59,159 nt of DNA, from the NCBI GenBank assembly GCA_017649485.1, contig JAGCGS010000016.1:1-59159 (forward strand). The letters are read 5' to 3'. The position numbers were made by a program, and so were the translations under genes. Below are positions 274 to 36,927 of this stretch, in pieces; the stretch's first letter is position 1, and each line of letters opens with the position of its first letter. The DNA comes from Bacteroidaceae bacterium. GTDB lineage: Bacteria; Bacteroidota; Bacteroidia; Bacteroidales; Bacteroidaceae. The notes under the pieces are model-generated. The model made no database searches and was not told the DNA's origin. It saw nothing but the letters and a program-made list of their open reading frames with translations.

Positions 274-343
274 ATTGACCATTGACCATTGACGATTGAC
301 CATTGAACGTTGAGCGTTGAGCGTTGAGCGTTGAACGTTGAGC
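274..343 (+). repeat. Heptanucleotide array, 10 units
   Basis: Ten units in perfect 7-base register: ATTGACC, ATTGACC, ATTGACG, ATTGACC, ATTGAAC, then five units of the GTTGAGC/GTTGAAC type. The gradual change from ATTGACC to GTTGAGC along the array looks like slippage with divergence. The unit matches ten other arrays in this window. Confidence 0.93.
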
Positions 344-413
344 TTTTGCTCGTTGCTCCAGAAAAGCGATCTTTGACATTTTGAAACACGCCGTTCGTCC
401 GCCCCACCCTGTT

Positions 414-528
414 CGTTCGGATTTGCAATCCGAACGGGCTAAATATGAGCATTTGTAATGCGGGAAATATATCTTATCAGGTTGCAAATCCTAATACTCA
501 ATTCGTTCGGATTACAAATCCGAACGAA
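414..528. repeat. Cluster of three REP-like palindromes
   Basis: Three inverted repeats share a GGATT-loop-AATCC theme. At 414-436 a 10-bp stem CGTTCGGATT/AATCCGAACG has loop TGC. At 449-461 a 5-bp stem GCATT/AATGC has loop TGT. At 502-528 a perfect 12-bp stem TTCGTTCGGATT/AATCCGAACGAA has loop ACA. The first and third share the same arm sequence, so they belong to one family. Such short dispersed palindromes resemble REP elements. No RAYT transposase is visible in the window. Confidence 0.7.
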
Positions 529-533
529 CGAGG

Positions 534-575
534 GGGCAATGGTCAACGTTCAATGGGCAATTGTCAATTGTCAAT
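534..575 (-). repeat. Heptanucleotide array, 6 units, at a gene end
   Basis: On the + strand the units read GGGCAAT, GGTCAAC, GTTCAAT, GGGCAAT, TGTCAAT, TGTCAAT. On the coding strand of the neighbouring dipeptidase gene this is the ATTGACA/ATTGACC orientation, and the TGA stop of that gene (564-566) plus its last codons lie inside the array. Confidence 0.85.
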
Positions 576-1352
576 TGAGTTCACTGGGAACGTGAAGTAG
601 GTATCGGGGAAAGGCTCGTCGCGCAGGGTGAAGTGCCACCACTCGGAATCCAATGCCTTGAAGCCGTGACGCAGCATGGCACGGCGCAGAATCATGCGGT
701 TCTGGAACTGCTGCTCGGTAATGGTTCTGCCTGTGGGACTGCGGTCATCGTTGGCATTATACTCACCCGTCTCTGGGTCGCCACAGAAGTCTGGATGGCT
801 CTCCACACCAAACCAGTCGAAGGTGCCACCCATGTCGAGTTCCTTCTCAGTAGCCATATCAAACAAAGTGAGGTCCACTGTAGAGCCACGTGTGTGTCCG
901 CTCTTCTCCATGATGTATTCCTGGGCAAAAAGCACACTCTTATCCAAATCGGGATAGAAATAGGTCTTCATCAGCGTATCAGGTATGTTCTTCGACCAAC
1001 GCACAAAGTGATCCACCCCTTCCTGCGGACGGTAGGCATCGTAAATCTTCAGGCGATAGCCATGCGCCTTCACGTCATCACTCACAGCCTTCAAACACTC
1101 AGCTGCCTGGCGTGTTAGCAGAGCCGTTGGCTCCAGATAGCCGTCAATGCGTTCACCCACGAAGTTGTATGTGCCATAGTAGCGAATCTCCAAGATAGCA
1201 TCGGGCACCGCTTCAGCCAAGTTTACAAACTCGCTGCGGTCTTCCGTTGGTTTCACTTGCTCAGCGAAGAAACTCCTTCTGCAGGTAATGACTCCACAGC
1301 AAAGAATCACAAGCAGCACAACTACCAACGCTATTTTATATTCCTTTTTCAT
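564..1352 (-). CDS. D-alanyl-D-alanine dipeptidase, VanX/DdpX-like (peptidase M15D)
   Basis: 262 residues with an N-terminal hydrophobic anchor (about residues 7-22) and the M15D zinc-peptidase fold. Visible motifs are the catalytic arginine in YDAYRP (R108), the zinc ligands in SGHTRGSTVD (H153, D160), and EWWH (E237 as general base, H240 as third ligand). The family cleaves D-Ala-D-Ala dipeptides. In organisms without a vancomycin operon, as here, it usually recycles or degrades cell-wall dipeptides in the envelope. No vanH/vanA-type genes are adjacent, so a resistance role is unlikely. The last codons (NSIDN) and the TGA stop come from a heptanucleotide array, so the C-terminus may have been reset by repeat growth. 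Confidence 0.88.
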   Translation of the reverse strand: MKKEYKIALVVVLLVILCCGVITCRRSFFAEQVKPTEDRSEFVNLAEAVPDAILEIRYYGTYNFVGERIDGYLEPTALLTRQAAECLKAVSDDVKAHGYRLKIYDAYRPQEGVDHFVRWSKNIPDTLMKTYFYPDLDKSVLFAQEYIMEKSGHTRGSTVDLTLFDMATEKELDMGGTFDWFGVESHPDFCGDPETGEYNANDDRSPTGRTITEQQFQNRMILRRAMLRHGFKALDSEWWHFTLRDEPFPDTYFTFPVNSIDN

Positions 1353-1599
1353 AACAAATAATCAAATTAAATCCGTTGAGCCAGAAGAAATATCTCAAGT
1401 CTCATCTGTGCAAGCAAAGCATAACGCTTCTTCTAATAATCCACAATATGTTGGAGGAATTGCTTCCTTACACCGCAAATGTAGTGATTATTTTTATAAC
1501 ACCAAGAATCCTATGCAGCTTTTTACTATCAATAGCATTAATAACATCATGTTGTAGTATTCTCTTGCTTTTTCATTACATATTCATTAATTTTTCAGC

Positions 1600-2043
1600 A
1601 TGTTTGAGCAAGAGATTGAGACATACGAGTTAGTGCGAGAGGAATACCAAAAGAAGGTGACCGGCAGCATGGGGCGCCACGAAAAGCTGATAGCACGTAT
1701 TCCTCAGTTGATGACATCGACAGAACAAGCCATTAAGAACGGGCAACACCCAATGGTGGTAGCTGCCCGGTTCCATGGCTATTTTGAATACCTGCACCCC
1801 TTTCGAGATGGAAATGGACGCACAGGCAGGTTACTTAGCAACTTACTTCTGCTCAGGGCCAACCATCCCCTCCTAATTATTGAGGTGAAAGACAGAAATG
1901 CTTATATCGAGTCACTCAAAATGATTAGGACTGATGGAACTGACGAGCATCTGATAGCCTTATTCTTCCAATTAGCCATCAACAGGATGAAGGGCGAATT
2001 AGAACAGAAGGCTAAGAATTCAAGGTCTATGTTCTTCTTTTGA
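1600..2043 (+). CDS. Fic/DOC-type AMPylase core, N-terminally short
   Basis: 147 residues carrying the Fic signature HPFRDGNGRTGR (H66 to R77) with catalytic histidine H66. Fic proteins transfer AMP or another nucleotide moiety to a hydroxyl of a target protein. Usual bacterial Fic proteins are 300-400 residues and have an N-terminal domain carrying the inhibitory (S/T)xxxE(G/N) helix and, often, a C-terminal winged helix. Here only the core is present and no inhibitory motif is seen upstream. The same frame is closed by a TAG at 1555-1557. It is either a 5'-truncated remnant or a deregulated minimal Fic. No antitoxin-like partner is adjacent. The 246 bp upstream hold no recognisable gene. 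Confidence 0.7.
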   Translation: MFEQEIETYELVREEYQKKVTGSMGRHEKLIARIPQLMTSTEQAIKNGQHPMVVAARFHGYFEYLHPFRDGNGRTGRLLSNLLLLRANHPLLIIEVKDRNAYIESLKMIRTDGTDEHLIALFFQLAINRMKGELEQKAKNSRSMFFF

Positions 2044-2056
2044 AAAGAAGGAAGCT

Positions 2057-2314
2057 TTATTTGCCCTTCAAAGCGTCTTTAGCTATAATCTGCCCTGCCT
2101 TCAATGACACTTGGGCAACCTTTAGCTGGTCATATCCATGGTCAGAGTAATACTCCTGCAGCTCTTTTACTGCATCCTGCAAATTGGAATCGCCGTTAAT
2201 CACTTTTTCCGCCAGGATCTTAGCGTCATGGTCAACATCGCCATTGTAGCCACCACAAGCCGTCAGCATGAAAAGGGCGACGCCCATACATAATGTGATA
2301 AAAAACTTCTTCAT
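2057..2314 (-). CDS. Small lipoprotein of unknown function
   Basis: 85 residues. The N-terminus MKKFFITLCMGVALFMLTAC is a lipoprotein signal with a lipobox ending at C20. It is followed by GGYNGDVDHD and a predicted helical segment rich in charged residues (about 30-80) containing two KEL/KxG-like stretches. No family is recognised. It lies 60 bp downstream of the riboflavin synthase gene on the same strand and may be co-transcribed with it. The Fic fragment is convergent and ends 13 bp away. Confidence 0.72.
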   Translation of the reverse strand: MKKFFITLCMGVALFMLTACGGYNGDVDHDAKILAEKVINGDSNLQDAVKELQEYYSDHGYDQLKVAQVSLKAGQIIAKDALKGK

Positions 2315-2374
2315 AACAATAAACTTTTTAATTATACTACTTTTATTTAAACTTCAACTTGTCTGCCTAACTCT

Positions 2375-2977: not shown

Positions 2978-3003
2978 ATCAATTCTTTTTTATATCTTTG
3001 CTG

Positions 3004-3035
3004 CAAATATAGTACAAGTAGAAGACAAAAACAAA
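3004..3035 (-). promoter_or_regulatory. Promoter for ribE
   Basis: On the minus strand, TTTG (3032-3035) and TATATTTG (3004-3011) are separated by 20 bases, matching the Bacteroidota -33/-7 consensus. The surrounding ~45 bases closely resemble the topB promoter region (see findings). Confidence 0.75.
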
Positions 3036-3113
3036 TAAGCTTGGCTATTTTGTTTCGTCCCGACACTGCCGGCTATCTTTAGATGAAACGCTCCCCCGTA
3101 AGACCCTAAAAAA

Positions 3114-3143
3114 GCGAGGAGCTTTTCACAAAGCCCCTCGTTT
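3114..3143. terminator. Hairpin with T-runs in the ribE/glnS divergent gap
   Basis: CGAGGAGCTTT and AAAGCCCCTCG pair with one mismatch around a TCAC loop. On the minus strand the stem is followed by CTTTTTTAG, and on the + strand by TTTTC. It lies between two divergent genes, where a terminator is not expected, so it may end a short leftward transcript starting in this gap. Confidence 0.6.
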
Positions 3144-3298
3144 TCAGTTTTCAATAGGTATTAGTTTTTTTAAGGTAAAAAGATTGTTTTCAGGATAACA
3201 ATGCAAATTAACGCCAATTATAAATAATATGCAAATAAAAAATTATGTCTTATAACATGTTTTTATCTTTTACATTTCTTTATCCAAGAAAATATGCT

Positions 3299-7085: not shown

Positions 7086-7553
7086 ATGGCTTTACATACT
7101 TGGTTTGAATGTAAGATTCAATACGAAAAGACGATAGAGAACGGAATGACTAAAAAGGTTACTGAACCTTACTTAGTGGATGCCCTCAGCTTTACTGAAG
7201 CAGAAGCCCGCATCACCGAGGAGATAGCTCCTTTCATGTCTGGTGAGTTCTCTGTGGCCAACATCAAACGCGCTAATTATTCAGATCTTTTTTATAGCAT
7301 AGACACTGCTTCAGACCGTTGGTATAAGGCTAAGTTGGTGTTTATTACCCTCGACGAGAAGAGTGGTAAGGAGAAAAAGATTAACACTTATGTGCTGGTG
7401 CAGGCTACCAACTTCCACACAGCCCTGAAGAATCTTGATGAAGGTATGAAGGGTACGATGGCTGATTATGTCATTGCCAGCTTACAGGAAACTCCGCTGA
7501 TGGATGTTTATCCGTTTGGGGGGGAAGAAGAACGATTGACCATTTACCATTGA
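7086..7553 (+). CDS. DUF4494 family protein
   Basis: 155 residues, cytoplasmic, matching the Bacteroidota-specific DUF4494 family by overall sequence (start MALHTWFECKIQYEK, central YSDLFYSIDTASDRWYKAKLVFITLDEK). Function unknown. The last six residues (RLTIYH) and the TGA stop are translated from the heptanucleotide array at 7535-7583, so the natural C-terminus probably ended near GGEEE. It is 18 bp behind the DedA gene. Confidence 0.88.
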   Translation: MALHTWFECKIQYEKTIENGMTKKVTEPYLVDALSFTEAEARITEEIAPFMSGEFSVANIKRANYSDLFYSIDTASDRWYKAKLVFITLDEKSGKEKKINTYVLVQATNFHTALKNLDEGMKGTMADYVIASLQETPLMDVYPFGGEEERLTIYH

Positions 7554-7583
7554 CAATTGACAATTGACGATTGACCATTGAGC
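7535..7583 (+). repeat. Heptanucleotide array, 7 units, holding a stop codon
   Basis: Units are ATTGACC, ATTTACC, ATTGACA, ATTGACA, ATTGACG, ATTGACC, ATTGAGC. The first units encode the last residues and TGA stop (7551-7553) of the DUF4494 gene. The array has the stop orientation relative to that gene. Confidence 0.93.
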
Positions 7584-7636
7584 TTCGTTCCTATTTCATC
7601 ACAACTCGGCATAGCCGATGCAAGCATTGCTCTGCA

Positions 7637-7653
7637 CTCGCTGCTCCGAAAAG
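7637..7653 (+). repeat. Motif shared with 349-366, next to heptanucleotide arrays
   Basis: CTCGCTGCTCCGAAAAG here and CTCGTTGCTCCAGAAAAG at 349-366 differ by one substitution and one indel. Both lie on the same side of, and within about 60 bases of, a heptanucleotide array that ends in TTGAGCTT. Confidence 0.5.
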
Positions 7654-7681
7654 TGACCATTGATTATAGGTAATTTGTAAC

Positions 7682-8347
7682 ATGATTTCGGAAGAGATAA
7701 AGAAGATTACGGCTGAACTACCAGAGGGGGTGAGACTGATTGCTGTCTCGAAGTTCCATCCTGCTGAAGCAATCATGGAGGCTTACGATGCCGGACAACG
7801 ACTCTTTGGCGAGAACAAGGTGCAAGAGATGAAGGCCAAGCACGAGGTGCTTCCTGCTGACATAGAATGGCACTTTATCGGACACCTGCAGACCAACAAG
7901 GTGAAGTATATCGCTCCGTTCGTATCCATGATTCACGCCATTGACAGTCTGCATCTGCTGCAAGAAGTGAACCGTCAGGCTGAGAAAGCAGGACGTGTGA
8001 TCGACTGCTTGCTGCAGATTCACATTGCCCATGAGGAAACAAAGTTTGGTATGACATTTGACGAATGTCGTACACTCTTGGATGATGGCGAATGGAGGGA
8101 GCTGAAGCATGTGCGCCTCTGCGGACTGATGGGTATGGCAACGAATACGGATGACATGGAGCAGGTGGAACGTGAGTTCACTTCTTTACAGGCTTTCTTC
8201 GAGGAGCTGAAAGGCACTATCTTCCAGAACAAGCAAGCATTTAAGGAATTGTCGATGGGTATGACGGACGACTACCCCATCGCCATCCGCCACGGAAGTA
8301 CCTTCATCCGCATAGGTACCCTGATCTTTGGCGAGAGAAATTACTAA
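7682..8347 (+). CDS. YggS-family PLP-binding protein (PLP homeostasis)
   Basis: 221 residues forming a single alpha/beta barrel. The PLP Schiff-base lysine is K24 in AVSK. Other family motifs are FGENKVQEM, EWHFIGHLQTNK and the C-terminal SMGMTDDYPIAIRHGSTFIRIG that binds the phosphate. The family (YggS/PROSC/PLPBP) has no catalytic activity known. It buffers pyridoxal phosphate and affects amino-acid and keto-acid pools. Length is standard. The 128 bp in front hold a heptanucleotide array and no clear promoter. Confidence 0.95.
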   Translation: MISEEIKKITAELPEGVRLIAVSKFHPAEAIMEAYDAGQRLFGENKVQEMKAKHEVLPADIEWHFIGHLQTNKVKYIAPFVSMIHAIDSLHLLQEVNRQAEKAGRVIDCLLQIHIAHEETKFGMTFDECRTLLDDGEWRELKHVRLCGLMGMATNTDDMEQVEREFTSLQAFFEELKGTIFQNKQAFKELSMGMTDDYPIAIRHGSTFIRIGTLIFGERNY

Positions 8348-12624: not shown

Positions 12625-13862
12625 AAGAGACTTTGACATATTTATTCAACCAAGTACCGATGTTCCAACGGATAGGTGGAGCAGCATATAAGGAGGGGTT
12701 GGACAACACCCTGACATTGGATGAACATTTCGGCCATCCTCACCAGAAGTTCCGCACCATCCATGTGGCAGGAACCAATGGGAAAGGGTCGGTGAGTCAC
12801 ACCTTAGCCGCTGTTTTACAAAGCGCAGGCTACAAAACCGGACTCTACACCTCGCCTCATCTGGTGGATTTCCGTGAACGCATTCGGATGAATGGCACAC
12901 CCATCTCCCAAGAGTATGTGATGCAGTTCGTTGAGCAGGAACGTAGTTTCTTCGAACCTCTGCGCCCTTCTTTCTTCGAGTTGGCCACAGCTATGGCTTT
13001 CAAGTACTTTGCCGACCAGCAGATTGATGTTGCCATAATAGAGGTGGGCTTGGGAGGCAGGCTCGACTGCACCAATATCATTATGCCCGACCTAAGTATC
13101 ATCACCAACATCAGTCTCGACCATATCCAGTTCTTGGGAGATACTTTGGCAAAGATTGCCTCAGAGAAAGCCGGCATCATCAAGCCTGGTGTCCCAGTGG
13201 TAATTGGTGAAACAACCCCAGAGACAAAACCAGTCTTCCTAGCGAAAGCCGAGAAAGTGGATGCACCCATCTTCTTTGCCGAAGAGAACGACCGTGAGGA
13301 CTATCCTGGTGTGGAGTATGAGCTAAAAGGTATCTATCAGGAAAAGAACAAGCGCACCTTATTCACTGCTTTACCCCTACTCAAGGAAGCAGGCTATCAC
13401 ATCGATGAGGAAACTGTTCGACAAGGTTTTGCCCATGTGGTAGAGCTGACCGGCTTGATGGGCAGGTGGCAGAAGCTACACGATAATCCCACCTTGGTGT
13501 GTGATACTGGCCACAATGTGGGTGGCATGCTATATGTTACCGAGCAACTGAAACAACAGGATTGTCACGAGCTACATATAATAATAGGTATGGTGAATGA
13601 CAAAGACATCAGCGGGGTGTTGGCTTTGTTGCCTAAAGAAGCGAAATATTACTTCACACAAGCCAGCGTAAGCCGTGCCTTGCCTGCCAAGCAGCTATAT
13701 GAGTTGGCAACCCAGGCAGGCTTAGAGGGAGAGGCTTATCCCAACGTAAAGTCTGCTGTTGAGGCAGCGATGCAAAAAAGCCTCCCGGAAGATTTCATCT
13801 TCGTAGGAGGCAGTAACTTTATCGTTGCCGACTTGCTCGAATCAAAAGTATTTCTCGATTAA
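12615..13862 (+). CDS. folC: Bifunctional folylpolyglutamate / dihydrofolate synthase
   Basis: 415 residues. The ATP-binding P-loop is GTNGKGSV (residues 53-60), with the Mur-ligase-type features YTSPHLVDFRERI, EVGLGGRLDCTN and ITNISLDHIQFLG. The C-terminal domain has DTGHNVGGM. It adds L-glutamate to dihydropteroate and/or extends folate polyglutamate tails in the cytoplasm. Length fits FolC. The 3' end overlaps the convergent protease/TPR gene by 21 bp, so no intergenic terminator separates the two. Confidence 0.94.
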   Translation: MDYQETLTYLFNQVPMFQRIGGAAYKEGLDNTLTLDEHFGHPHQKFRTIHVAGTNGKGSVSHTLAAVLQSAGYKTGLYTSPHLVDFRERIRMNGTPISQEYVMQFVEQERSFFEPLRPSFFELATAMAFKYFADQQIDVAIIEVGLGGRLDCTNIIMPDLSIITNISLDHIQFLGDTLAKIASEKAGIIKPGVPVVIGETTPETKPVFLAKAEKVDAPIFFAEENDREDYPGVEYELKGIYQEKNKRTLFTALPLLKEAGYHIDEETVRQGFAHVVELTGLMGRWQKLHDNPTLVCDTGHNVGGMLYVTEQLKQQDCHELHIIIGMVNDKDISGVLALLPKEAKYYFTQASVSRALPAKQLYELATQAGLEGEAYPNVKSAVEAAMQKSLPEDFIFVGGSNFIVADLLESKVFLD

Positions 13863-15560
13863 GGCATCAACCTGCGGATCACCTAACTCTTTGGCTTTGT
13901 CGAAAGCGGTACGAGCATCCTTGTTCTTCTTCTGCTGCAACAGAGCCAAGCCTTTCAGGCGATACAGCTCAGCATAAGCTGCATCCTTCGCTATTGCCTC
14001 ATCCAGCACCTTCACGGCTTCATCATTCCGTCCTACCCTCATATTCACCACAGCCAACTCAGCCCGATAGGTCAACTCATCAGGATTCTGCTCTATCGCC
14101 TCAGCATAATCGTCCAACGCACGTTGGAAAGCCTTTGCCTGCATAGCACATTGTCCGCGCAGATAATAGAATTGGTCGTTTACCTTACCGTTAACAGCCT
14201 TGAAATACTCATCGTAATCCACCAATGCAGGACGATATTTCTCAGCATTCGTCAAGATACGGGCACGCTCCAACAGGTAAGGAGCAGCAGCTTCCGTGAA
14301 GGGAGGGGTGAAAGTGGCAATACATTTATCCATCAAGGCTATCACCTCGTCGGCTGGCGCATTCATCAGCTCTTTACAATGAGCGGCACTGTACCAGGTA
14401 GATTCTGATGCCAACGCAGAATTGTTCACTTTCTCAATGGCTTGATAAGCTTCGTCGTAACGCTGCATAGCGAACAGGATATCAGCCTCTAACTTGTCGT
14501 AGGCTGGCAGATCATTGGTAGCCAAAGCCTCACGCACCTCACCCAACGCTTTCTCAAAAGTCCAATCCTTATAAGTCTGCTCGGGATTGGTCAGCTGGTA
14601 GTTGTAAATCAAGTTGGCACGTTCATAATATGTCTCACCTTTGTTAGAAGATACCTCTAACGCTTTGTCCAGATCTGCCTCTGCTTTCGCCAACGAAACC
14701 TCATCCAGCGAGCGACTTAACTGATGGGTGGCCCTGCGTACATATCCGTCGGCATTACCTGGGAACTTAGCCACAAAATCATTCAACAGCATCGCGTAAC
14801 CGTCTGGGTTGGTAGTGGTGGATGCCATATAGAGCGTCACCAGTGCCTGGTCTTCGGTGTCAGGCAAAGCTTTCTTGATACCGATGCTTGACAACGAACC
14901 ATCGTTCAGCGACAGAGCATTGATTTCCTGTGTCATTGCAAAACGGGCATCTATCGCATAACAAATATTCTTGTCAGTCTCATCGGAGTTCTGCTGTGCT
15001 AAAGCAAATACCTGTCCGTTGGCATCCATCAGCGGGCAGCTCACCATCTTGTCCTGTAGAGGTAACTCTAATGTGTAATACTGATATGTTCCAGACACGC
15101 GGGATGACTCCTTCACCTTACCAGGTGTCACATCGGTTTTCTTTTGTGTCGAGTAAGGCAACAGATAGACTGTGCTACCCACAACTGGTGTATTCGCCGA
15201 CACCGTTAACGCTGTGGCTTTCTGCCCATTCAATGCCACCTTGAATTTCAGTACATCATACATCTCGTTGGCACCCATAATCTCCAACACTTGCAGGCGC
15301 TTGCCTTCAGCGTTCACGATTTCAGCCCTTGAGGCTCCCTTGAACAAAGCATAGTCCGACAGGGCGGCACCACCCTCGCTCACGAAGAATCCGTTGCCTG
15401 TGCCCAGCATCTTGCCCTCATTATCGTAGGTAACTACGGAGAACACAGCCTGACGGGCTTTGTCTGCCCACTTTGGCGATTGTCCATTAACCATTGACCA
15501 CTGTCCGCTGAAGAATACAATGACCAACGCAAGCACTATCCTAATCATACTCTTTTTCAT
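13842..15560 (-). CDS. Secreted degenerate trypsin-like domain plus TPR protein
   Basis: 572 residues. Residues 1-26 are a signal peptide whose c-region is translated heptanucleotide repeat (GQWSMVNGQ at 19-27), cleavage expected before Q27. Residues about 30-200 have a HtrA-like trypsin fold (GTGNGFFVSEGGAALSDYAL, YDVLKFKV), but the catalytic histidine position reads SDY and the GNSGG serine position reads VSCPLMDANG. The usual catalytic triad is therefore not intact. Residues about 260-572 are TPR repeats (AFQRALDDYAEAIEQNPDE, NDEAVKVLDEAIAKD, KDARTAFDKAKELGD). It is probably a periplasmic scaffold or peptide-binding protein. It is last in the dnaN-exonuclease-recN operon. Confidence 0.78.
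   Translation of the reverse strand: MKKSMIRIVLALVIVFFSGQWSMVNGQSPKWADKARQAVFSVVTYDNEGKMLGTGNGFFVSEGGAALSDYALFKGASRAEIVNAEGKRLQVLEIMGANEMYDVLKFKVALNGQKATALTVSANTPVVGSTVYLLPYSTQKKTDVTPGKVKESSRVSGTYQYYTLELPLQDKMVSCPLMDANGQVFALAQQNSDETDKNICYAIDARFAMTQEINALSLNDGSLSSIGIKKALPDTEDQALVTLYMASTTTNPDGYAMLLNDFVAKFPGNADGYVRRATHQLSRSLDEVSLAKAEADLDKALEVSSNKGETYYERANLIYNYQLTNPEQTYKDWTFEKALGEVREALATNDLPAYDKLEADILFAMQRYDEAYQAIEKVNNSALASESTWYSAAHCKELMNAPADEVIALMDKCIATFTPPFTEAAAPYLLERARILTNAEKYRPALVDYDEYFKAVNGKVNDQFYYLRGQCAMQAKAFQRALDDYAEAIEQNPDELTYRAELAVVNMRVGRNDEAVKVLDEAIAKDAAYAELYRLKGLALLQQKKNKDARTAFDKAKELGDPQVDALIEKYF
15479..15506 (-). repeat. Heptanucleotide array inside a signal peptide (4 units)
   Basis: On the + strand the units are ATTGTCC, ATTAACC, ATTGACC, ACTGTCC. 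On the coding strand they read in the open GGTCAAT orientation and encode GQWSMVNGQ at the signal-peptide cleavage site of the protease/TPR protein. Confidence 0.9.
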
Positions 15561-19374: not shown

Positions 19375-21561
19375 TTACTGAGACTTGAATGGCAAACGGA
19401 AAGAGCAACCTGCCTTCCATTCTGAACAACCATAGGCAGTTTTTCCCTTGATGATGTGACCTTTGCCACAAACGGGGCAAGGGGTGCCTATGATAGCATC
19501 ATCGGGAACCAACACTTTCTGAGCAGGTTTCTTTTTTGCTATCGAAGCACCTTCTTTCTTTGAAGCTGTTGCCTTCTTCTTCTTATTCTCCTCCCCTGGA
19601 TTCACAACCGTTATGCGTCGATTGGAATTATCTGAGAGCACAGCATTTACTATCTCTGTCACCATCTGCTTCAGCTCCTCCAGGAATTGTCCGGCTTGAT
19701 AGGTTTTCTTCTCAATCTCACGAAGCTTTTTCTCCCAGCGGCCAGTCAGTTCGGCACTTTTAAGCAAATCTTCACGAATCAAGCCAATCAGCTCGATGCC
19801 TGTGGGGGTGGCAATGAGCGTCTTTCTCTCCTTACGGATATAGTTGCGCTTGAACAACGTTTCAATGATAGCAGCTCTGGTAGATGGTCGCCCTATCCCA
19901 TTCTCCTTCATGGCATCCCGCAACTCATCGTTATCTACCAGTTTACCAGCTGTTTCCATTGCTCGTAGCAAGGTTGCCTCTGTATAAGGCCTTGGGGGTT
20001 GCGTCCACTTTTCTTGTAGTTCAGGAATGTGCGGGCCTTGCTCGCCTTTTTTGAATTGACCATTGACCATTGATGATTGACCATTCTTTGAAGATAGAGT
20101 ATTGTTATTAATATCGTCATCATCATTGTCGCCTTGAAACACAACCCTCCAACCAGGATCGAGAACTTGTCGCCCACTGGTTTTGAAGGGGATATCCTCC
20201 ACTCTGCCCTCTATCGTTGTGGTGCTGATCTTGCACTCAGGATAGAATACTGCTATAAAATGGCGAGCCACCAAGTCGAACACTTTCTTCTCTTGGTCAG
20301 TGAGGTTTACAGGAGGCTGACCTGTTGGGATAATGGCATGGTGGTCAGTCACTTTGGAATTATCGAACACTTTCTTGCTCTTGGGTAATTTGCCATTGAC
20401 CGTTGACGATTGACCATTAACCATTAACCATTGACCATTGACCAATTTACCCACGAGAGGCTCAATCAGGTTTTCATAGCCTTTCAAGCCTTTCAAGATA
20501 GCTGGACATTTGGGATAGATATCATCACTCAAGAATGTGGTATCCACACGCGGATAAGTGGTTACCTTCTTTTCATACAGACTTTGGATGAGCTTCAAAG
20601 TCTCATCAGCGCTAAAGCCAAACTTCTTGTTGCAATCCACCTGCAGGGAAGTGAGGTCATACAACCTGGGGGGGTATTCCTTACCTGCCTTCTTCGTTAC
20701 ATCAGTCACCTCGAAAGGCAAGTTCTTGATGCGCTCCACCAACGCCAATCCATCTGCCTCATTGGCAATGGGTTCCATGCCAGGATTCACTACCTTAGAG
20801 ATGTCTATTGGCTCATCATCCTTTTTATTCTTCTCAGCCTCAGCAATCAGTTCCTCATCGCTCTTCTTCACTATCGCATTGAACAATGTATCGCGATAGG
20901 TGGTCTTCAGCTCCCAGTATTGGCGAGGCACGAAATTCTCAATCTCCTGTTGGCGATTCACTATCAGTGCCAAAGTGGGGGTTTGCACGCGTCCTATGCT
21001 CAACACCTGACGATTCTGACCGTATTTAATGGTATAAAGGCGTGTGGCATTCATGCCCAAGAGCCAATCACCGATGGCGCGACTCAGGCCTGCCTCATAA
21101 AGCGACTGGTAGTCGGAAGCCTCATGCAACTGGTTAAAGCCTTCACGGATAGACTCTTCCGTCAGTGATGAAATCCAAAGCCTTTTTACGGGACACTTCG
21201 CCCCAGCCTTCTGCATCACCCATCGCTGAATCAGCTCACCCTCCTGGCCGGCATCACCACAGTTGATAATCATGTCTGCCTTTTGCATCAATCCCTCAAT
21301 GATGTGGAACTGCTTCTCGTAAGTAGGATTAGAGATGAGCTTGATGCCGAAGCGTGGAGGCACCATAGGCAAGGAGCCTAAGTTCCATGATTTCCAAGCA
21401 TCTGTATAGTCCTGCGGCTCTTTGAGTGTACAAAGATGGCCGAAGGTCCAGGTTACCTGATACCCGTTACCCTCGATATATCCGTCCTTACGCTCGCGAG
21501 CCCCCAAGACTTGCGCTATATCCCTCGCCACCGATGGTTTCTCAGCTATGCAAACAATCAT
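19375..21561 (-). CDS. topB: DNA topoisomerase III (type IA)
   Basis: 728 residues from the ATG at 21561 (MIVCIAEKPSVARDIA); an in-frame ATG 60 bases earlier is rejected because it lies upstream of the promoter. The TOPRIM domain is at the N-terminus (IAEKPS, GDAGQEGELI). The catalytic tyrosine is in TTYPRVDT (about residue 336). The C-terminus has one cysteine motif (CPVCGKGH...CSEWKAGC). It relaxes or decatenates single-stranded crossings. Two loops are enlarged by translated heptanucleotide repeats, at about residues 373-389 and 494-502. The first sits just before KKVFDNSKVTDHHAIIPTG. Confidence 0.94.
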   Translation of the reverse strand: MIVCIAEKPSVARDIAQVLGARERKDGYIEGNGYQVTWTFGHLCTLKEPQDYTDAWKSWNLGSLPMVPPRFGIKLISNPTYEKQFHIIEGLMQKADMIINCGDAGQEGELIQRWVMQKAGAKCPVKRLWISSLTEESIREGFNQLHEASDYQSLYEAGLSRAIGDWLLGMNATRLYTIKYGQNRQVLSIGRVQTPTLALIVNRQQEIENFVPRQYWELKTTYRDTLFNAIVKKSDEELIAEAEKNKKDDEPIDISKVVNPGMEPIANEADGLALVERIKNLPFEVTDVTKKAGKEYPPRLYDLTSLQVDCNKKFGFSADETLKLIQSLYEKKVTTYPRVDTTFLSDDIYPKCPAILKGLKGYENLIEPLVGKLVNGQWLMVNGQSSTVNGKLPKSKKVFDNSKVTDHHAIIPTGQPPVNLTDQEKKVFDLVARHFIAVFYPECKISTTTIEGRVEDIPFKTSGRQVLDPGWRVVFQGDNDDDDINNNTLSSKNGQSSMVNGQFKKGEQGPHIPELQEKWTQPPRPYTEATLLRAMETAGKLVDNDELRDAMKENGIGRPSTRAAIIETLFKRNYIRKERKTLIATPTGIELIGLIREDLLKSAELTGRWEKKLREIEKKTYQAGQFLEELKQMVTEIVNAVLSDNSNRRITVVNPGEENKKKKATASKKEGASIAKKKPAQKVLVPDDAIIGTPCPVCGKGHIIKGKTAYGCSEWKAGCSFRLPFKSQ
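20055..20082 (-). repeat. Heptanucleotide array inside topB (4 units)
   Basis: On the + strand the units are ATTGACC, ATTGACC, ATTGATG, ATTGACC. On the topB strand this is the open orientation, encoding NGQSSMVNGQF. It lies in a hydrophilic loop between the conserved parts of the gate domains. Confidence 0.92.
20395..20443 (-). repeat. Heptanucleotide array inside topB (7 units)
   Basis: On the + strand the units are ATTGACC, GTTGACG, ATTGACC, ATTAACC, ATTAACC, ATTGACC, ATTGACC. On the topB strand they encode VNGQWLMVNGQSSTVNGK in a loop between two conserved blocks. The reading frame is kept although 49 bases is not a multiple of three, so flanking bases must compensate. Confidence 0.93.
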
Positions 21562-26101: not shown

Positions 26102-26872
26102 ATGAAGAAATCTATTTATAAGTTAGTTGTGTCATTACTGTTGATCATGGTCAATGCCCAATGGTCAATGGTTAATGCTCAAAAGGTAATTTGTCATCGT
26201 GGTTTCTGGGACACCCCAGGGTCGGCACAAAACTCCATCGCCGCTTTGGTAAAGGCAGATTCAATCGGTGCCTTTGGCTCTGAGTTCGATGTCTGGATGA
26301 CAGCAGATGGCGAACTGGTGGTAAATCACGATAAGGTATATAAAGGTGTGAACATGGAGACTTCTACCTTTGAGCAGGTAAGGGCTATCCGCTTGGACAA
26401 TGGTGAGAAGCTACCTACCCTGGATGAATACTTAGCTAAAGGCAAGGAGTTGAAGGTCAGGCTGATTTTGGAGATGAAATCACTCTCCGACTTCAATCGC
26501 GAGGACGAATGTGCCGCTAAGATTGCACGTAAGCTGAAGCACTATGGGGTGTTGGATCGTACTGATATCATCGCTTTCAGTATCAATGCTTGTCTGGCAT
26601 TCAAGAAGCTGTTGCCTGACACCAAGATTTACTATCTCGACAATGACTATACGCCTAAAAAGCTGAAGACGTTGGGCTTTGCCGGATTGGACTACGAGCA
26701 GAATGTATTGAAAAACAATCCTGAATGGACACAGGAAGCACATAAACTGGGTTTGGAAGTGAATGTCTGGACAGTAAATGATGTTGATGCCTTGCAGTTT
26801 TTCATCGACGAAGGCGTTGATTATATAACAACAAACAATCCGTTGAAGCTTCAACAGCTTTTGGAACATTAA
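26102..26872 (+). CDS. Secreted glycerophosphodiester phosphodiesterase
   Basis: 256 residues. The signal peptide carries a translated heptanucleotide array (MVNAQWSMVNAQ at 16-27), and cleavage is expected at VNA before Q27. The GDPD barrel shows HRGFWDTPGSAQNS, the metal ligands in SEFDVWMT, the second catalytic histidine in VVNHD, EMKS, and the C-terminal VNVWTVNDVDAL. It hydrolyses glycerophosphodiesters to glycerol-3-phosphate and an alcohol, in the periplasm. It lies between the G1P dehydrogenase-like gene and pyrH (21 bp) on one transcript. Confidence 0.92.
   Translation: MKKSIYKLVVSLLLIMVNAQWSMVNAQKVICHRGFWDTPGSAQNSIAALVKADSIGAFGSEFDVWMTADGELVVNHDKVYKGVNMETSTFEQVRAIRLDNGEKLPTLDEYLAKGKELKVRLILEMKSLSDFNREDECAAKIARKLKHYGVLDRTDIIAFSINACLAFKKLLPDTKIYYLDNDYTPKKLKTLGFAGLDYEQNVLKNNPEWTQEAHKLGLEVNVWTVNDVDALQFFIDEGVDYITTNNPLKLQQLLEH
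26149..26176 (+). repeat. Heptanucleotide array inside a signal peptide (4 units)
   Basis: Units are GGTCAAT, GCCCAAT, GGTCAAT, GGTTAAT, in the open orientation relative to the GDPD gene. The GCCCAA variant changes NGQ to NAQ, giving the favoured alanine at position -1 of the signal-peptidase site. Confidence 0.9.
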
Positions 26873-26893: not shown

Positions 26894-27598
26894 ATGTATA
26901 AGAGAATATTACTGAAGTTGAGTGGCGAAAGCCTGATGGGTGCCAAAGGTCATGGCATCGATGAACAGCGATTGGCAGAATATGCCGAGCAGATTAAGGA
27001 AATCCATGGTATGGGAGTGCAGATTGGCATCGTGATTGGTGGTGGCAATATCTTCCGAGGCTTGAGTGGGGCATCGAAAGGCTTTGACCGTGTGAAGGGT
27101 GACCAGATGGGTATGCTGGCTACTGCCATCAACTCTTTGGCTCTAAGTAGTGCACTTACCGCCATAGGGGTAAAGACACGCGTTTTGACGGCTATCCGCA
27201 TGGAACCTATTGGCGAGTTTTATACAAAATGGCGTGCCATCGAGTGCTTAGAGGCTGGTGAGGTTTGCGTATTTGCCTGTGGTACTGGTTCGCCTTACTT
27301 CACTACCGACACAGGATCAAGCCTGAGAGGCATTGAGATTGAGGCTGATGTGATGTTCAAGGGTACTCGTGTAGATGGTGTCTATACAGCTGACCCAGAG
27401 AAGGATCCTACGGCTACGAAGTTCGATGATATTTCTTATGACGAGGTATTGGCCCGTGGCTTAAAGGTGATGGACCTATCTGCTATCTGTATGTGTAAGG
27501 ACAATGGCCTACCCATTGTGGTGTTCAACATGGATGTGGTGGGGAACTTGAAGAAAGTAATTGCAGGTGAAGGCATTGGCACATTGGTGCATCCTTGA
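26894..27598 (+). CDS. pyrH: UMP kinase
   Basis: 234 residues of the amino-acid-kinase fold: KRILLKLSGESLMG at the start, GIVIGGGNIFRG for phosphate binding, GDQMGMLAT, and the C-terminal DGVYTADPEKDPTA. It phosphorylates UMP to UDP, is hexameric and cytoplasmic. Its gene is followed by frr, the usual pyrH-frr order in bacteria. The TGA stop lies in the first, slightly diverged unit (CTTGACC) of a heptanucleotide array. Confidence 0.97.
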   Translation: MYKRILLKLSGESLMGAKGHGIDEQRLAEYAEQIKEIHGMGVQIGIVIGGGNIFRGLSGASKGFDRVKGDQMGMLATAINSLALSSALTAIGVKTRVLTAIRMEPIGEFYTKWRAIECLEAGEVCVFACGTGSPYFTTDTGSSLRGIEIEADVMFKGTRVDGVYTADPEKDPTATKFDDISYDEVLARGLKVMDLSAICMCKDNGLPIVVFNMDVVGNLKKVIAGEGIGTLVHP

Positions 27599-29167: not shown

Positions 29168-29195
29168 TAAGGCGAGGCATCTGCCTCGCCTTATT
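29166..29195. terminator. Bidirectional terminator between rsgA and the Smr gene
   Basis: A perfect 13-bp stem AATAAGGCGAGGC / GCCTCGCCTTATT with an ATCT loop lies between convergent genes, touching both stop codons. Confidence 0.9.
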
Positions 29196-30316
29196 TAATG
29201 AATAGTGACCTGTGTCGCTCCAAAGCCGTATTCCTGGAAACTGGCATCTTGCCACTTGCATCGAGGATACTTGCGTTTAAGCTCGTCGAGAATGGCTTTA
29301 CGCAAGACTCCCTCACCTTTGCCGTGAATAAACACGATGCGCTTGCCCTGTTGGTTCTTGTATTGCTCCATTACCTCAATGAACTTCTTGAGCTGATATT
29401 GCAACATATCGGCATTACTTAGGCCATGCGTATTGTCGAGCAAAGCATTAATATGCAAATCCACCTCCAAGATGGCATTACGTTGCTCCTTCTGACGTAC
29501 TGGTTTGCGGGCAGGTTGTACATCTTTCTTCTGTATCAAGGCATTCTTCACATCCTCGGCACTAACATACATCTGCTTGACAGGTTGGTCGTTTCTCACA
29601 ATGTCGTAGAGTAAGGCAGGCTCTTCAAAGAAATCATTCTCCTGGAAGGTATGCAACTTGTAGAACTTCACAACATCGATGCGTAACTCCACACTAACAG
29701 CAGGCTTCAAGGCAAAAGGTTTACCCTCTTTGAAGGCGATACATTGCACGGCTACACGCTCTAAATCATTGAGTTGTGACTTCTCAAACTCCTCCAAGAA
29801 AAGCTTCGTATTGGGCTCAATCAGTCCTTGTGAACGCACTTGACAAGATTGGTTCTCTATATTAGAATAGGTGTAATAAAGGTAGTAGTTACTATCGTTC
29901 ACCAAGTAGGTTTCAAAAGGAGTGGTGCTTACTTGCTTGATGTCAATAGGGACATAGGCAAGATAGACGTTGAGTATGTCACCACCTTTTATTTCGGATT
30001 GACTATTAACCACTGAAGATTGACTATTGGCCATTGACCTTTGGCTAATATTGCCATTGGGAGGTGTAGGTGTCTTACCACGATAGGGAGCAGCAACATC
30101 AGATTTGGCACGAGGGGCTTCCTCTGCTTTCTTCTGTTTCTGCTGGGGTGTAGGGATATTGTAATCATCCGTTTCAATCACCACCAACTCTTTTATCTGC
30201 ATGGGTATTTCGAAGCCATCAGCATCTTCAACCAAGGCAATGTCTTTGCCTCGAAAACCTACTACCTTACCACCTCCCACTTCTGAGAGAAAACGCACTT
30301 TGTCTCCAATCTTCAT
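29195..30316 (-). CDS. DUF2027 protein with C-terminal Smr domain
   Basis: 373 residues. The N-terminal ~60 residues resemble a small barrel ([21 protein letters not shown]). A low-complexity linker (about 60-110) contains a translated heptanucleotide array (residues about 91-107). Residues about 110-270 are the DUF2027 body. Residues about 290-373 are the Smr domain with [16 protein letters not shown] and the final GATQVTIH. Smr domains are nucleases acting on DNA or on mRNA at collided ribosomes. The role of the Bacteroidota DUF2027-Smr form is not known to me. It is cytoplasmic. Confidence 0.88.
29998..30046 (-). repeat. Heptanucleotide array inside the DUF2027 gene (7 units)
   Basis: On the + strand the units are ATTGACT, ATTAACC, ACTGAAG, ATTGACT, ATTGGCC, ATTGACC, TTTGGCT. 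Relative to the gene they are in the open orientation and encode [17 protein letters not shown] in the inter-domain linker. Confidence 0.85.
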
Positions 30317-32274: not shown

Positions 32275-33024
32275 TTAAAATGTCCATTTAGCCGCCAAAG
32301 AAGGGATGACATAGAACTTGTCGTTCTCTCCTTTGTCATTAAAAATGAAATTATTGCTAACTTCGACTTCCGCACCCAAGCTCAGGTTTACACCATCCAT
32401 ACCTTTCAGTGTATTGAGGTTCACCCAGAACTGTGGCTGGCTCAGCAAGCTAAGCTTGCCCTTCACATCAGGGTCATACCATACATCGCAGAAGCCGGAA
32501 AGGGTTACCAAACCATTGGAAAAGTTCAACCCCCAAACAGCAGTAAGCTGGGCACTGGAAAAACCTTTTCGACCCATACCTTTGAAGTACTGTTTATATA
32601 AAGCTTGTACAGAGAATGTTTTAGAGAAATCTGCACTTGCCCAGTTCCATGCACCACCTAACAAAAGCGCATGTTGGAAACGGGAAGCGATGGCGGTATG
32701 CTCAATACTTGTTGCACCACCATTATACTCTATATGTGCTGCCCAACGCTTGTTTTTTGTTACATTGAACTCGCGAGAAAACTCCCAATACACACCTGCT
32801 GCACCATCAGTATAATAGTTGATATCAGTAAACAGGAAGGTAGAACCCCACTTATCAGGTTTAAACATCTCCACTGTAGAGGTGATATTTGGACGGCCAG
32901 ACAGATCGCCATATAAAGTATGACCTAAGTCGTACAACAACTGTACATTCTGACCATTGACCATTGACCATTGACCATTGACCATTGTCAATGCCACTAT
33001 AATACTAAACAACCACTTTCTCAT
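32275..33024 (-). CDS. DUF5020 family protein (Tsx-like outer-membrane channel candidate)
   Basis: 249 residues. The signal peptide contains a heptanucleotide array (MVNGQWSMVNGQ at 14-25) with cleavage expected before Q25, giving the mature start QNVQLLYDLGH seen in this family. The mature part has alternating aromatic/polar strands and ends in a C-terminal aromatic (WTF), as in outer-membrane beta-barrels. DUF5020 resembles the nucleoside-specific channel Tsx. Its place 25 bp behind a purine permease and a uracil permease supports a role in moving nucleosides or bases across the outer membrane. That function is inference. Confidence 0.82.
   Translation of the reverse strand: MRKWLFSIIVALTMVNGQWSMVNGQNVQLLYDLGHTLYGDLSGRPNITSTVEMFKPDKWGSTFLFTDINYYTDGAAGVYWEFSREFNVTKNKRWAAHIEYNGGATSIEHTAIASRFQHALLLGGAWNWASADFSKTFSVQALYKQYFKGMGRKGFSSAQLTAVWGLNFSNGLVTLSGFCDVWYDPDVKGKLSLLSQPQFWVNLNTLKGMDGVNLSLGAEVEVSNNFIFNDKGENDKFYVIPSLAAKWTF
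32949..32990 (-). repeat. Near-perfect heptanucleotide array inside a signal peptide
   Basis: Four consecutive perfect ATTGACC units (32956-32983) are flanked by partial units. On the coding strand of the DUF5020 gene they are in the open orientation. It is the least diverged array in the window, so it may be the youngest. Confidence 0.93.
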
Positions 33025-34366: not shown

Positions 34367-34397
34367 AGTATTTCAATTGGAATGTTAAGATACTCTA

Positions 34398-35600
34398 TTA
34401 CGATTCCTTTGTTCTTGGCAGAATAAGGTTCAGCACCAAACCTGTAAGAGCTGCCAAGCCAATGCCGGAAAGGCTGAAAGAACCTGCCGTCAAAACAGCA
34501 CCACCTATGCCTGTTGTAAGAATCACACTGGCAATAATCACATTGCGTGTAACCCCAAAATCTACCTTATTACGCATCAGGTTCTGAATACCAACAGCTG
34601 CTATAGAACCAAAGAGTAGCAACATGATACCTCCTAATACTGCCTGGGGGATGCTCTGCAACAAAGCATTAAGTTTTCCTACCACAGAGAATATCAAAGC
34701 TGTTACTGCAGCAATTCTAATGACTTGAGGATTAGTGATGCGAGTAATTTGAACAGCGCCTGTTACCTCACTATAGGTTGTTACTGGAGGGCCACCCAAT
34801 AATGAAGCAGCCAAACAAGCCAAACCGTCACCCAACATGGTGCGATGCAAGCCTGGATCCTTGACAAAATTTTCATCAGCTACTGCACCGATAGCATAAA
34901 CATCACCCACATGCTCAACCACAGCGGCCAAAGCCACAGGCATCATGAAAACAAAGGGCTCCCACTGGAAAGCAGGTAACTCAGGATGTCGGATATGCTC
35001 TGGCAAAGCCAACCAAGGGGCACTCGCCACAGCAGAGAAATCCACCTCACCCAGGCAAATTGCCACCACAAAACCAGCGATTATGCCACAAATCACAGGC
35101 ACCAACTTCACCAAGCCTTTTCCAAACATCAATACCACAACGGCAACTGCCAAGCTAATGAGAGCCAAAAGCCAGTTGGTCTTCGCCATATCAACGGCTG
35201 TACCACTGAGTGATAGACCAATCAGCATGATGACAGGACCTATCACCACTGGAGGAAATAGCCTGTCGAGCAGTTGCATACCTTTCCACTTTACCAACCC
35301 TGCCACAATGAAATAAATGAGTGCCACACCTGCAAACCCTGCTAAGGTGCCAGGCATGCCCCATTGTCCGGAAGCGGCTATGATAGGAGTAATGAAAGCA
35401 AAGCTGGAACCCAAGAAAATGGGCACCATACCTTTGGTCACTAAATGAAAAATGAGAGTGCCAATACCGGCGGAGAACAGGGCGGCCGAGGGATCAAGCC
35501 CTACTAACAAAGGCACCAAGACAGTAGATCCGAAAGCAACAAAGAGAAATTGCACACCTACTACTGTTTTTCTAAATGGTGTTAGATTCAGGTCATCCAT
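34398..35600 (-). CDS. uraA: Uracil/xanthine permease (UraA-like, NCS2)
   Basis: 400 residues, 14 predicted membrane segments. Family features are FLGSSFAFITPI, the TM8 glutamate in VALAAVVEHVGDVYAIG, and the TM10 region GGPPVTTYSEVTGAVQITR. UraA-type permeases import uracil by proton symport through the inner membrane. It leads the operon with the purine permease, DUF5020 and the secreted hydrolase-like gene, and its promoter overlaps that of queA. Confidence 0.9.
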   Translation of the reverse strand: MDDLNLTPFRKTVVGVQFLFVAFGSTVLVPLLVGLDPSAALFSAGIGTLIFHLVTKGMVPIFLGSSFAFITPIIAASGQWGMPGTLAGFAGVALIYFIVAGLVKWKGMQLLDRLFPPVVIGPVIMLIGLSLSGTAVDMAKTNWLLALISLAVAVVVLMFGKGLVKLVPVICGIIAGFVVAICLGEVDFSAVASAPWLALPEHIRHPELPAFQWEPFVFMMPVALAAVVEHVGDVYAIGAVADENFVKDPGLHRTMLGDGLACLAASLLGGPPVTTYSEVTGAVQITRITNPQVIRIAAVTALIFSVVGKLNALLQSIPQAVLGGIMLLLFGSIAAVGIQNLMRNKVDFGVTRNVIIASVILTTGIGGAVLTAGSFSLSGIGLAALTGLVLNLILPRTKES

Positions 35601-35626
35601 GAAATATACATTTTAAATTGTTGATG

Positions 35627-35661
35627 CAAATATAAAGATTTTTATTATCTTTGCACACAAA
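35627..35661. promoter_or_regulatory. Overlapping divergent promoters for uraA (-) and queA (+)
   Basis: On the minus strand TATATTTG (35627-35634) has CAAA complement (TTTG) at 35658-35661, a 23-base spacing. On the + strand TATCTTTG (35646-35653) has TTG upstream at 35621-35623. The two core promoters interlock, so expression of permeases and queA may be mutually exclusive at this site. Confidence 0.6.
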
Positions 35662-35674
35662 TTAAGAAAAAAAT

Positions 35675-36904
35675 ATGATACAAGACCCGAAACGCATCAG
35701 AATCCAAGATTACAATTACGACTTGCCTGATGAGCGAATAGCCAAGTTCCCTTTACCCCAAAGAGACCATTCGAAGCTATTGCTATATCGCCAAGGCAAT
35801 GTGAGCGAAGACATATTCACTTCTCTGCCCAACTATATAGATAAAGGAGAATTGATGGTATTCAACAACACTAAAGTCATTCAGGCTCGCCTGCATTTCC
35901 GTAAGGAGACTGGTGCCTTAATAGAGGTGTTCTGCTTAGAGCCCATAGAGCCAGCAGATTATGCTTTAAACTTCCAACAGACAGAGCATGCGGCTTGGCT
36001 TTGTCTGGTTGGCAACCTCAAGAAATGGAAAGGCGAGATTCTGAAAAGGGAGATGATCGTGAAAGGCAGGCTCATCAAACTAACGGCAGAAAGGAAACAA
36101 GATATTGGCACAAGCCAGTGGGTGGATTTCCGTTGGAATAACAAGAAGGTGACATTTGCCGACATCCTGGAGGTGTTTGGCGAGTTGCCCATCCCACCAT
36201 ATTTAAATAGAGAGACTCAGGAGAGCGACAAGGTAACCTATCAGACAGTTTATTCCAAGATCAAAGGTTCTGTAGCGGCTCCTACGGCTGGGTTGCATTT
36301 TACACAAAAGGTGCTTGATGCCCTAAAAGAAAAGGGAGTTGATATGGAGGAGCTGACCCTGCATGTGGGAGCTGGCACCTTCAAGCCCGTAAAGAGCGAA
36401 AGAATCGAAGGGCATGAGATGCATACCGAATGGATTTCTGTTAACAAGGCTACTATTGAGAGCCTTATCCATCATAAAGGTCAAGCTATCGCGGTAGGCA
36501 CAACCTCTGTCAGGACTTTGGAGTCACTCTACCACATGGGTGTGACCCTGATTCTGAACCCAGAGGCAACGGATAATGACTTGAAAGTGAAGCAGTGGCA
36601 ACCATATAATTTGCCATCTAAGGCTCAGGACATATCTCCTGTAGAGGCTCTACAAGCTTTGCTCGCCTATATGGAGCATCATGAATTGGAAACCTTGCAT
36701 AGCAGTACGCAGATTATCATTGTACCAGGTTACACATACCATGTAGTGAAGGCAATGGTGACTAACTTCCACCAACCCCAAAGCACCCTACTCCTTTTGG
36801 TATCAGCCTTTGTGAAAGGGGATTGGCGCAAGATCTACGATTATGCGATGGCACACAAGTTCCGTTTCCTCAGCTATGGTGATTCTTCTTTTATTGAGAA
36901 TTGA
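35675..36904 (+). CDS. queA: S-adenosylmethionine:tRNA ribosyltransferase-isomerase, long form
   Basis: 409 residues. It transfers and isomerises the ribosyl group of AdoMet onto preQ1 in tRNA to form epoxyqueuosine. Motifs are YNYDLPDERIAKFPL, GSVAAPTAGLHFT, LHVGAGTFKPVK, GTTSVRTLES and the C-terminal TNFHQPQSTLLLLVSAF. E. coli QueA has about 356 residues, so this is the longer Bacteroidota version with a larger insert in the first half. The TGA stop is inside a heptanucleotide array. Confidence 0.93.
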   Translation: MIQDPKRIRIQDYNYDLPDERIAKFPLPQRDHSKLLLYRQGNVSEDIFTSLPNYIDKGELMVFNNTKVIQARLHFRKETGALIEVFCLEPIEPADYALNFQQTEHAAWLCLVGNLKKWKGEILKREMIVKGRLIKLTAERKQDIGTSQWVDFRWNNKKVTFADILEVFGELPIPPYLNRETQESDKVTYQTVYSKIKGSVAAPTAGLHFTQKVLDALKEKGVDMEELTLHVGAGTFKPVKSERIEGHEMHTEWISVNKATIESLIHHKGQAIAVGTTSVRTLESLYHMGVTLILNPEATDNDLKVKQWQPYNLPSKAQDISPVEALQALLAYMEHHELETLHSSTQIIIVPGYTYHVVKAMVTNFHQPQSTLLLLVSAFVKGDWRKIYDYAMAHKFRFLSYGDSSFIEN

Positions 36905-36927
36905 AGATTCACCATTTACCATTGACC
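36893..36927 (+). repeat. Heptanucleotide array at the queA stop (5 units)
   Basis: Units are ATTGAGA, ATTGAAG, ATTCACC, ATTTACC, ATTGACC, in the stop orientation. The queA TGA (36902-36904) is in the second unit. Confidence 0.85.

Follow-up and report, generated by a model that had tools for sequence, protein, structure and literature searches.

Heptamer repeat arrays in a Bacteroidaceae genome are probably sorted by orientation and reading frame within genes

Short tandem arrays of a heptamer, read as GGTCAAT on one strand and ATTGACC on the other, are dispersed through a 59,159-nucleotide stretch of a Bacteroidaceae genome (contig JAGCGS010000016.1 of assembly GCA_017649485.1; hereafter the window). 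A preliminary description of the window had proposed that selection filters these arrays by orientation, with the repeat acting as an in-frame linker in one direction and as a three-frame stop in the other. Tabulating arrays in this genome and in a relative, G133, we find the orientation filter supported in both, and we find that the reading frame, not orientation as such, appears to decide whether an array persists in a gene. We consider it likely (probability about 0.75) that the arrays constitute a drifting, dispersed heptamer family that is passively filtered by translation.

Orientation and placement of arrays

The source assembly comprises 2.6 Mb in 69 contigs and is 82.6% complete; the window is its contig C22. 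Our orientation table samples 1,191,812 of the 2,615,097 bases of this source genome, along with 328,705 bases of G133 that were chosen mostly for matches; the comparison set comprises one genome per species. We counted arrays under a strict rule that demands at least three units with the core TCAAY (RTTGA on the opposite strand), one unit being skippable. Arrays with TCAAY on the coding strand are termed open, and those with RTTGA on it stop-oriented. This yielded 61 arrays in G133 and 91 rows in the source genome, where one array (C14:19966-20075) is split in two by a stretch boundary.

The 91 rows comprise 25 arrays inside genes, 22 across stop codons, 16 across called starts, and 28 between genes. 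Those inside genes are open in 22 cases and stop-oriented in 3, and the corresponding figures in G133 are 28 and 3, giving 50/56 open arrays in the two genomes together (one-sided binomial, 5e-10). Every array that spans a stop codon is stop-oriented (22 to 0 in the source genome, 13/13 in G133), although this total of 35/35 is in part built into the class, as no open array can hold the stop. Open arrays read through within 100 nt of a gene end were not found in either sample; the nearest lie 285 nt (source genome) and 147 nt (G133) away. Between genes there is no clear bias: counted per flanking gene, the source genome has 20 open and 16 stop-oriented arrays on the 3' side and 11 and 6 on the 5' side, and among the 16 intergenic arrays of G133 those within 100 nt of a gene divide 6/8 and 5/5, respectively. 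Arrays across called starts (10 open and 6 stop-oriented in the source genome; one, stop-oriented, in G133) were excluded from the argument because the calls are unreliable: our gene calls are home-made and starts can fall inside arrays, as happened for one gene in which the array proved to be internal.

Compared with 400 random placements of the arrays, in-gene arrays of the source genome are depleted (25 versus 79.1 expected, SD 3.1), whereas arrays at 3' ends are enriched (22 versus 2.3 expected, with a maximum of 8 in any placement), as are intergenic ones (28 versus 7.1 expected). The preliminary description had anticipated a strand bias inside genes in such a tabulation, and few genes interrupted by stop-oriented arrays. 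The 1.19 Mb sampled bear this out, with 22/25 in-gene arrays open, 22/22 gene-end arrays stop-oriented, and no host domain clearly cut among the 21 gene-end genes searched with Pfam.

Reading frame inside genes and at gene ends

The stop-oriented arrays inside genes are the exceptions. Five of the six in the two genomes are clear arrays in which the unit standing in the reading phase has been destroyed, by a change of TTGA to TTCA, TTCG, TTTA or TGGA. The destroyed units are the second and fifth of seven in L213, 21 bases apart, and the second in L048, L209 and two arrays of L279. The sixth array (L083 6392) resembles a chance match. Pairs of inverted arrays also occur inside genes with a stop-free frame, in the genomes G175 (four cases) and G202 (one).

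Length changes inside genes also respect the frame. At three interior sites of the window (20055, 20393 and 29998), 15/15 lengths in five relatives differ from that of the window by multiples of 3, and array insertions in genes measure 54 and 33 nt. Among the in-gene hosts are a topoisomerase III-like protein, with two arrays, the linkers of a HisD-HisC protein and an ABC protein, an NADH pyrophosphatase-like Nudix protein, and a phosphoglycerate mutase-like protein. In the last of these the array region is gapped against structure 2zkt; for the Nudix protein, the structure alignment stopped short of the array. HisD and HisC form a single protein (L212:11975-14338) in the source genome and in the five relatives examined, joined by a hypervariable linker; in the source genome and in G133, this linker contains a heptamer array. 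We rejected the idea that an array made this fusion, as all five relatives are also fused.

At gene ends, the arrays supply stops in all frames. In the 22 cases of the source genome the stop is located at base 5, 12, 19 or 1 of the array (7, 6, 6 and 3 cases, respectively) and is TGA in 20 and TAA in 2; the array itself makes the stop in 19/22, with the three frames about equally used. The gene-end stop bases of G133 are distributed over 6, 5 and 2 cases. Pfam searches of 21 of the 22 genes, the other being cut by its stretch, revealed no domain clearly cut by an array. In 13/21 the last profile is at least 97% complete and ends no more than 18 residues from the protein end; two genes fall short of the profile end by 4 and 16 positions, and the others are uninformative. 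At called 5' ends, open arrays contain ATG, and we make no claim that they supply start codons; in the best such case (gene L063 17468-18139) another ATG lies upstream in frame, matching G133.

The repeat unit and its distribution

Three tandem copies of GGTCAAT, allowing up to 3 mismatches, gave 277 + 285 = 562 overlapping matches genome-wide, versus 0 + 0 for a control pattern read backwards. A motif-free search of the 1.19 Mb with Tandem Repeats Finder returned 103 rows of period 7 and 79 for all other periods from 5 to 13. Of 121 merged regions whose periods are 7 or a multiple of it, 96 fit the TCAAT core at 70% or more, a share inflated by the fact that the core was picked after viewing the units and then used for aligning and selecting them. 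The 544 units from these 96 regions have core frequencies of T 0.97, C 0.89, A 0.97, A 0.98 and T 0.88 (C 0.09). The sixth base is free (G 0.54, C 0.25, T 0.12, A 0.09) and the seventh is G (0.66) or T (0.30). These frequencies make K-TCAAY-N a better description of the unit than GGTCAAT.

Arrays also pair in a preferred arrangement. Inverted pairs no more than 150 nt apart all read RTTGA...TCAAY, 13 to 0 (source genome 7, G133 2, and G127, G175 and G202 together 4). Pairs in the same direction at that distance number 5 in the source genome and 3 each in G133 and G127.

Beyond the source genome, a four-unit TCAAY match occurs at least once in 88/149 genomes of the genus and is absent from 61; the backwards-pattern control of this search is not independent, as (TCAACTN)n fits both patterns. 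The exact repeat was matched at at least 109 loci. Among the 80 matches listed, 45 are assigned to Prevotella, Prevotellaceae, Bacteroidaceae, Bacteroides or Bacteroidales, many of them from rumen, and the others to different groups, including Fischerella, Nostoc, Longitalea, Niastella and Chloroflexi. The listed locus with the longest strong translated match to the sampled genome is L104, from a Prevotella sp. assembly (78% over 724 residues), and the source organism is presumably a Prevotella-like member of the family. We do not infer horizontal spread from the distant occurrences. In a sample of the phylum, the repeat was matched at up to 2 mismatches in 10/296 genomes, the source genome included.

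Arrays of the window

The eleven arrays of the preliminary description are indeed heptamer arrays at all eleven places, although five of them are worn (15479, 26147, 27594, 29998 and 36893; Table 1). Tandem Repeats Finder, run at score 30 on the window, lists 10/11, that at 29998 for its second half only and as period 14; the array at 36893-36927 is unlisted and readable by eye. Six pass the strict rule (starting at 274, 543, 7535, 20055, 20395 and 32956), and the five worn arrays were left out of the genome-wide counts. The orientations were correctly described, with GGTCAAT on the coding strand in 6/6 in-gene arrays and ATTGACC in 4/4 gene-end arrays. The statement that the open orientation has no stop in any frame and always encodes the cycle GQWSMVN holds for perfect units only: four of the six in-gene arrays (15479, 20393, 26147 and 29998) carry stops in one or two frames that are not read.

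Table 1. Heptamer arrays and companion element in the window
Feature	Position	Strand	Remark
ATTGACC/TTGAGCG array, 10 core units, stop orientation	274..343	+	ends ORF 2-292 (+) by plain open reading frame (ORF) listing
Stop-oriented array across end of D-Ala-D-Ala dipeptidase-like gene 564-1352 (-)	534..577	-	
Stop-oriented array, source of TGA for gene 7086-7553 (DUF4494)	7535..7581	+	
Copy of the ~75-base interspersed element	7579..7656	-	90% to typed query; heptamer units on both sides
Worn open array near N-terminus of gene 13842-15560 (-), trypsin-like/TPR protein	15479..15500	-	
Open array in topoisomerase III-like gene 19375-21561 (-)	20055..20085	-	
Second open array in topoisomerase III-like gene 19375-21561 (-)	20393..20444	-	
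Worn open array in GDPD family gene 26102-26872 (+), within its signal-peptide-like N-terminus	26147..26182	+	translated, judged by eye
Worn stop-oriented array in amino acid kinase family gene 26894-27598 (+), beginning at its stop codon	27594..27634	+	
Worn open array in variable linker of gene 29195-30316 (-), DUF2027/Smr	29998..30045	-	
Best open array, 37 bases perfect, in gene 32275-33024 (-), DUF5020	32949..32987	-	
Worn stop-oriented array at end of gene 35675-36904 (+), queuosine biosynthesis	36893..36927	+	profile to position 322 of 322

Individual sites illustrate the patterns described above. The TGA of the array at 534 is the stop of its dipeptidase-like gene, whose Peptidase_M15 profile runs to position 198 of 199. 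The array at 7535 is missing at the corresponding place in four relatives (the fifth is unalignable), compared with which the array and the adjoining element amount to an extra 115-135 bases. The array at 20393 is a 54-nt in-frame insertion that is missing from 3/5 relatives and coincides with a gap when the protein is aligned with E. coli topoisomerase III (1d6m). The gene that ends at the 27594 array has its stop at the same position as its relatives. Judged by eye, the array at 32949 stands at the end of a signal-peptide-like N-terminus, and such termini are also closed by open arrays (VNGQWSMVNGQ and kin) at 26147 in the window, L217:8623 and L222:17752.

The array at 274 is intergenic according to the gene caller and sits in sequence that has further copies in the genome. 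Bases 1-522 of the window recur at C35:844-1456 (74%), C11:25940-26248 (85% over 7-306) and C5:35917-36111 (99% over 1-195), making the window start multicopy DNA. Positions 418-432 and 508-522 belong to another palindrome family, CGGATT(n)AATCCG, which occurs 59 times in 1.19 Mb; five scrambled palindromes gave 0-2 occurrences each.

A companion element of about 75 bases

Some arrays adjoin a conserved interspersed element. The source-genome sample contains 15 copies, 9 of them with an array within 30 nt (6/15 without), and the neighboring arrays point in one direction in 14/14 cases. Of 17 copies in G133, 9 have arrays within 30 nt (8/17 do not), and 12/12 arrays again share one direction, for a combined polarity of 26/26. 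Most arrays have no adjoining element. Element flanks from ten species (n = 116) show a seven-base periodicity, with an autocorrelation of 0.458 at lag 7 versus 0.23-0.29 at the other lags from 3 to 12. Six of 24 copies lie in genes, all six in the direction of the gene. An element that is read in frame inside genes and flanked by arrays in one direction is new here.

With a 64-base query at E <= 0.001, we found the element in 21/149 genomes of the genus and in 57/151 genomes of the family, covering 16/30 sampled genera; many of these matches are partial, few candidates were scored per genome, and the searches had no shuffled control. Folded as single-stranded DNA, the element is no better than its shuffles (z-scores -0.91 and -0.70). 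Rfam returned no match in the window at gathering scores, nor in 7480-7720 at E <= 1.

Different heptamers at corresponding sites

Relatives seem to carry arrays of different heptamers at corresponding sites, judging from sequence comparison, and this is also new. At site 20055, arrays with a common start column consist of ATTGACC in the window, worn GTTGACC in G133, AATTGAG in G128 and AATTGAG-like units in G149; at site 27594, G126 carries AATGGAG/AATGAAT units. Unit spectra differ as well: TCAATGG (52) and TCAATCT (16) lead in the source genome; TCAATCG (19), TCAATTG (15) and TCAATGG (14) in G133; AAGAATG (12) and TCAATTT (9) in G127; and TCAATTG (11) in G175; several further genomes were sampled only lightly. 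In G175 and G202, SpoIID-domain genes that appear orthologous (L230:5805-7175 and L238:3234-4637) have an in-frame element at a corresponding site, with a similar interior and arms made of different heptamers. At the level of titles and abstract openings, we did not find site-wise unit exchange or the ~75-base element described.

Slippage explains growth at one site, not a single spectrum across many sites that differs between species. New units have probably replaced those of an old array in place, as opposed to arriving by a fresh insertion. One could go further and suppose that a genome-wide activity writes species-specific heptamers and keeps rewriting the arrays, with the ~75-base element as landing site or seed. 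Ongoing rewriting would account for a site with ATTGACC in the window and AATTGAG or GTTGACC (20055) or ATGGAGA (27594) elsewhere, and would mean that arrays are renewed almost like telomeres; we regard so active a process as very unlikely.

Discussion

The passive filter that we favor would operate as follows. The K-TCAAY-N family would spread and renew itself by a process at the DNA level, sometimes alongside the ~75-base element, with copies landing widely. A copy inside a gene would persist only if the frame read through it is free of stops, which is usually the case in the TCAAT orientation, or in the RTTGA orientation when every third unit is mutated. An RTTGA-oriented copy at a 3' end would be tolerated, because a stop arises in every frame within 19 bases and the protein ends near its natural end, and between genes both orientations would persist. 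Purifying selection is presumably the filter. Three observations weigh against this account or escape it. The TCAAT core is better kept than the two remaining bases of the unit, a difference that translation does not require. Only 2/7 inverted pairs of the source genome are two facing gene ends, as a filter would lead one to expect, and the remainder are unpredicted. Finally, start and stop classes are based on ORFs, such that an old truncation without a recognizable domain would go unseen.

What the preliminary description had right is the orientation filtering, in genes and at gene ends alike; that the repeat acts as a linker or terminator is unsupported, since arrays are depleted in genes, show no clear bias between them, and need nothing beyond passive tolerance. 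Maintenance for such functions, with three-frame stops following genes and flexible spacers within them, would fit the uniform orientation of the 22 stop-spanning arrays, partly built into that class, and the recurrence of arrays at matching gene positions in some relatives. However, relatives that lack a gene-end array use an ordinary stop (G149 at 27594; G147, G149 and G128 at 36893; four relatives at 7535), and this together with the depletion and the lack of intergenic bias makes a maintained function very improbable. Phase variation, in which slippage by 7 bases would shift the frame and switch genes, is suggested by a unit length indivisible by 3 and by several arrays in signal-peptide-like N-termini. 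Many of the host genes resemble housekeeping ones (topoisomerase, HisD-HisC, RecR, UvrB and an Obg-family GTPase), though, and interspecies lengths at the three interior window sites change by multiples of 3, so we think contingency loci quite unlikely.

The conserved core could instead reflect a sequence-specific DNA- or RNA-binding protein whose sites the arrays are. In arrays found motif-free and then aligned on the motif, core positions are conserved at 88-98% versus 54-66% at the other two, and G133 is similar but weaker (81-100% versus 35-71%). Unit copying likewise yields shared cores, and relatives also use the coreless units AATGAAG, AATGGAT and TAGTGGT; we judge binding sites unlikely. 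The arrays might also be terminal parts of a repetitive extragenic palindrome (REP)-like element moved by an IS200/RAYT-type transposase, given the conserved element beside or between arrays in many copies and two Y1_Tnp matches each in the source genome (partial, best E 7e-8) and G126. Yet many elements have no array within 30 nt (6/15 and 8/17) and most arrays no element, and Y1_Tnp occurs in 33/149 genomes of the genus and was not found in the array-rich G133, G127, G175 and G121, drafts that could miss genes. We rejected a RAYT transposase as the general mover on this distribution, and a REP-like origin appears highly improbable.

Under passive filtering, the arrays amount to a natural experiment in which translation sorts repeats by orientation, by frame, and even by single units within an array. 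The apparent exchange of units at fixed sites beside a conserved element raises the question of how bacteria homogenize many unlinked heptamer arrays.

Comparison with known repeat systems

Rickettsia palindromic elements are short repeats tolerated in frame inside genes. By description, the element and arrays reported here resemble them in being inserted in frame in protein genes, and differ in that the arms are heptamer arrays and palindromy appears to be local only.

Heptamers dominate the long simple sequence repeats and short tandemly repeated repetitive sequences surveyed by Mrazek (2007), as cited in PMC4679880. Our arrays share the dominant period of 7 and the many loci genome-wide, but belong to one main core family and include in-frame copies within housekeeping-type genes. 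In Xanthomonas and Nostoc, GGGAATC and GGGGA(C/T)T heptamers are reported near gene ends with a strand preference, and are G-rich, quadruplex-forming and under-represented in coding regions (PMC4692102). By codon reading, GGGAATC repeats are free of stops on both strands, so their preference at gene ends indicates that such a bias need not always concern stops.

The closest precedent is the TAACTGA system of MacGregor (2015; PMC4679880), in which dispersed heptamers hold stops in three frames one way and are open the other way, as perfect units are here by codon reading. The unit is different: TAACTGA is not the unit of our arrays, whose main forms are TCAATGG, TCAATCT, TCAATTG and kin. In a Beggiatoaceae genome the TAACTGA repeats lie mostly just upstream of start codons, whereas K-TCAAY-N arrays are not so placed, and in the accessible portions of the paper we found neither an interspersed element nor a site-wise change of units described. 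The same source calls the frame asymmetry probably a major factor in the genomic distribution of TAACTGA and reports the repeats in five Bacteroidetes. The principle of an orientation filter is thus already known and follows from coding constraint; what the present arrays add is the companion element and the different heptamers at corresponding sites.

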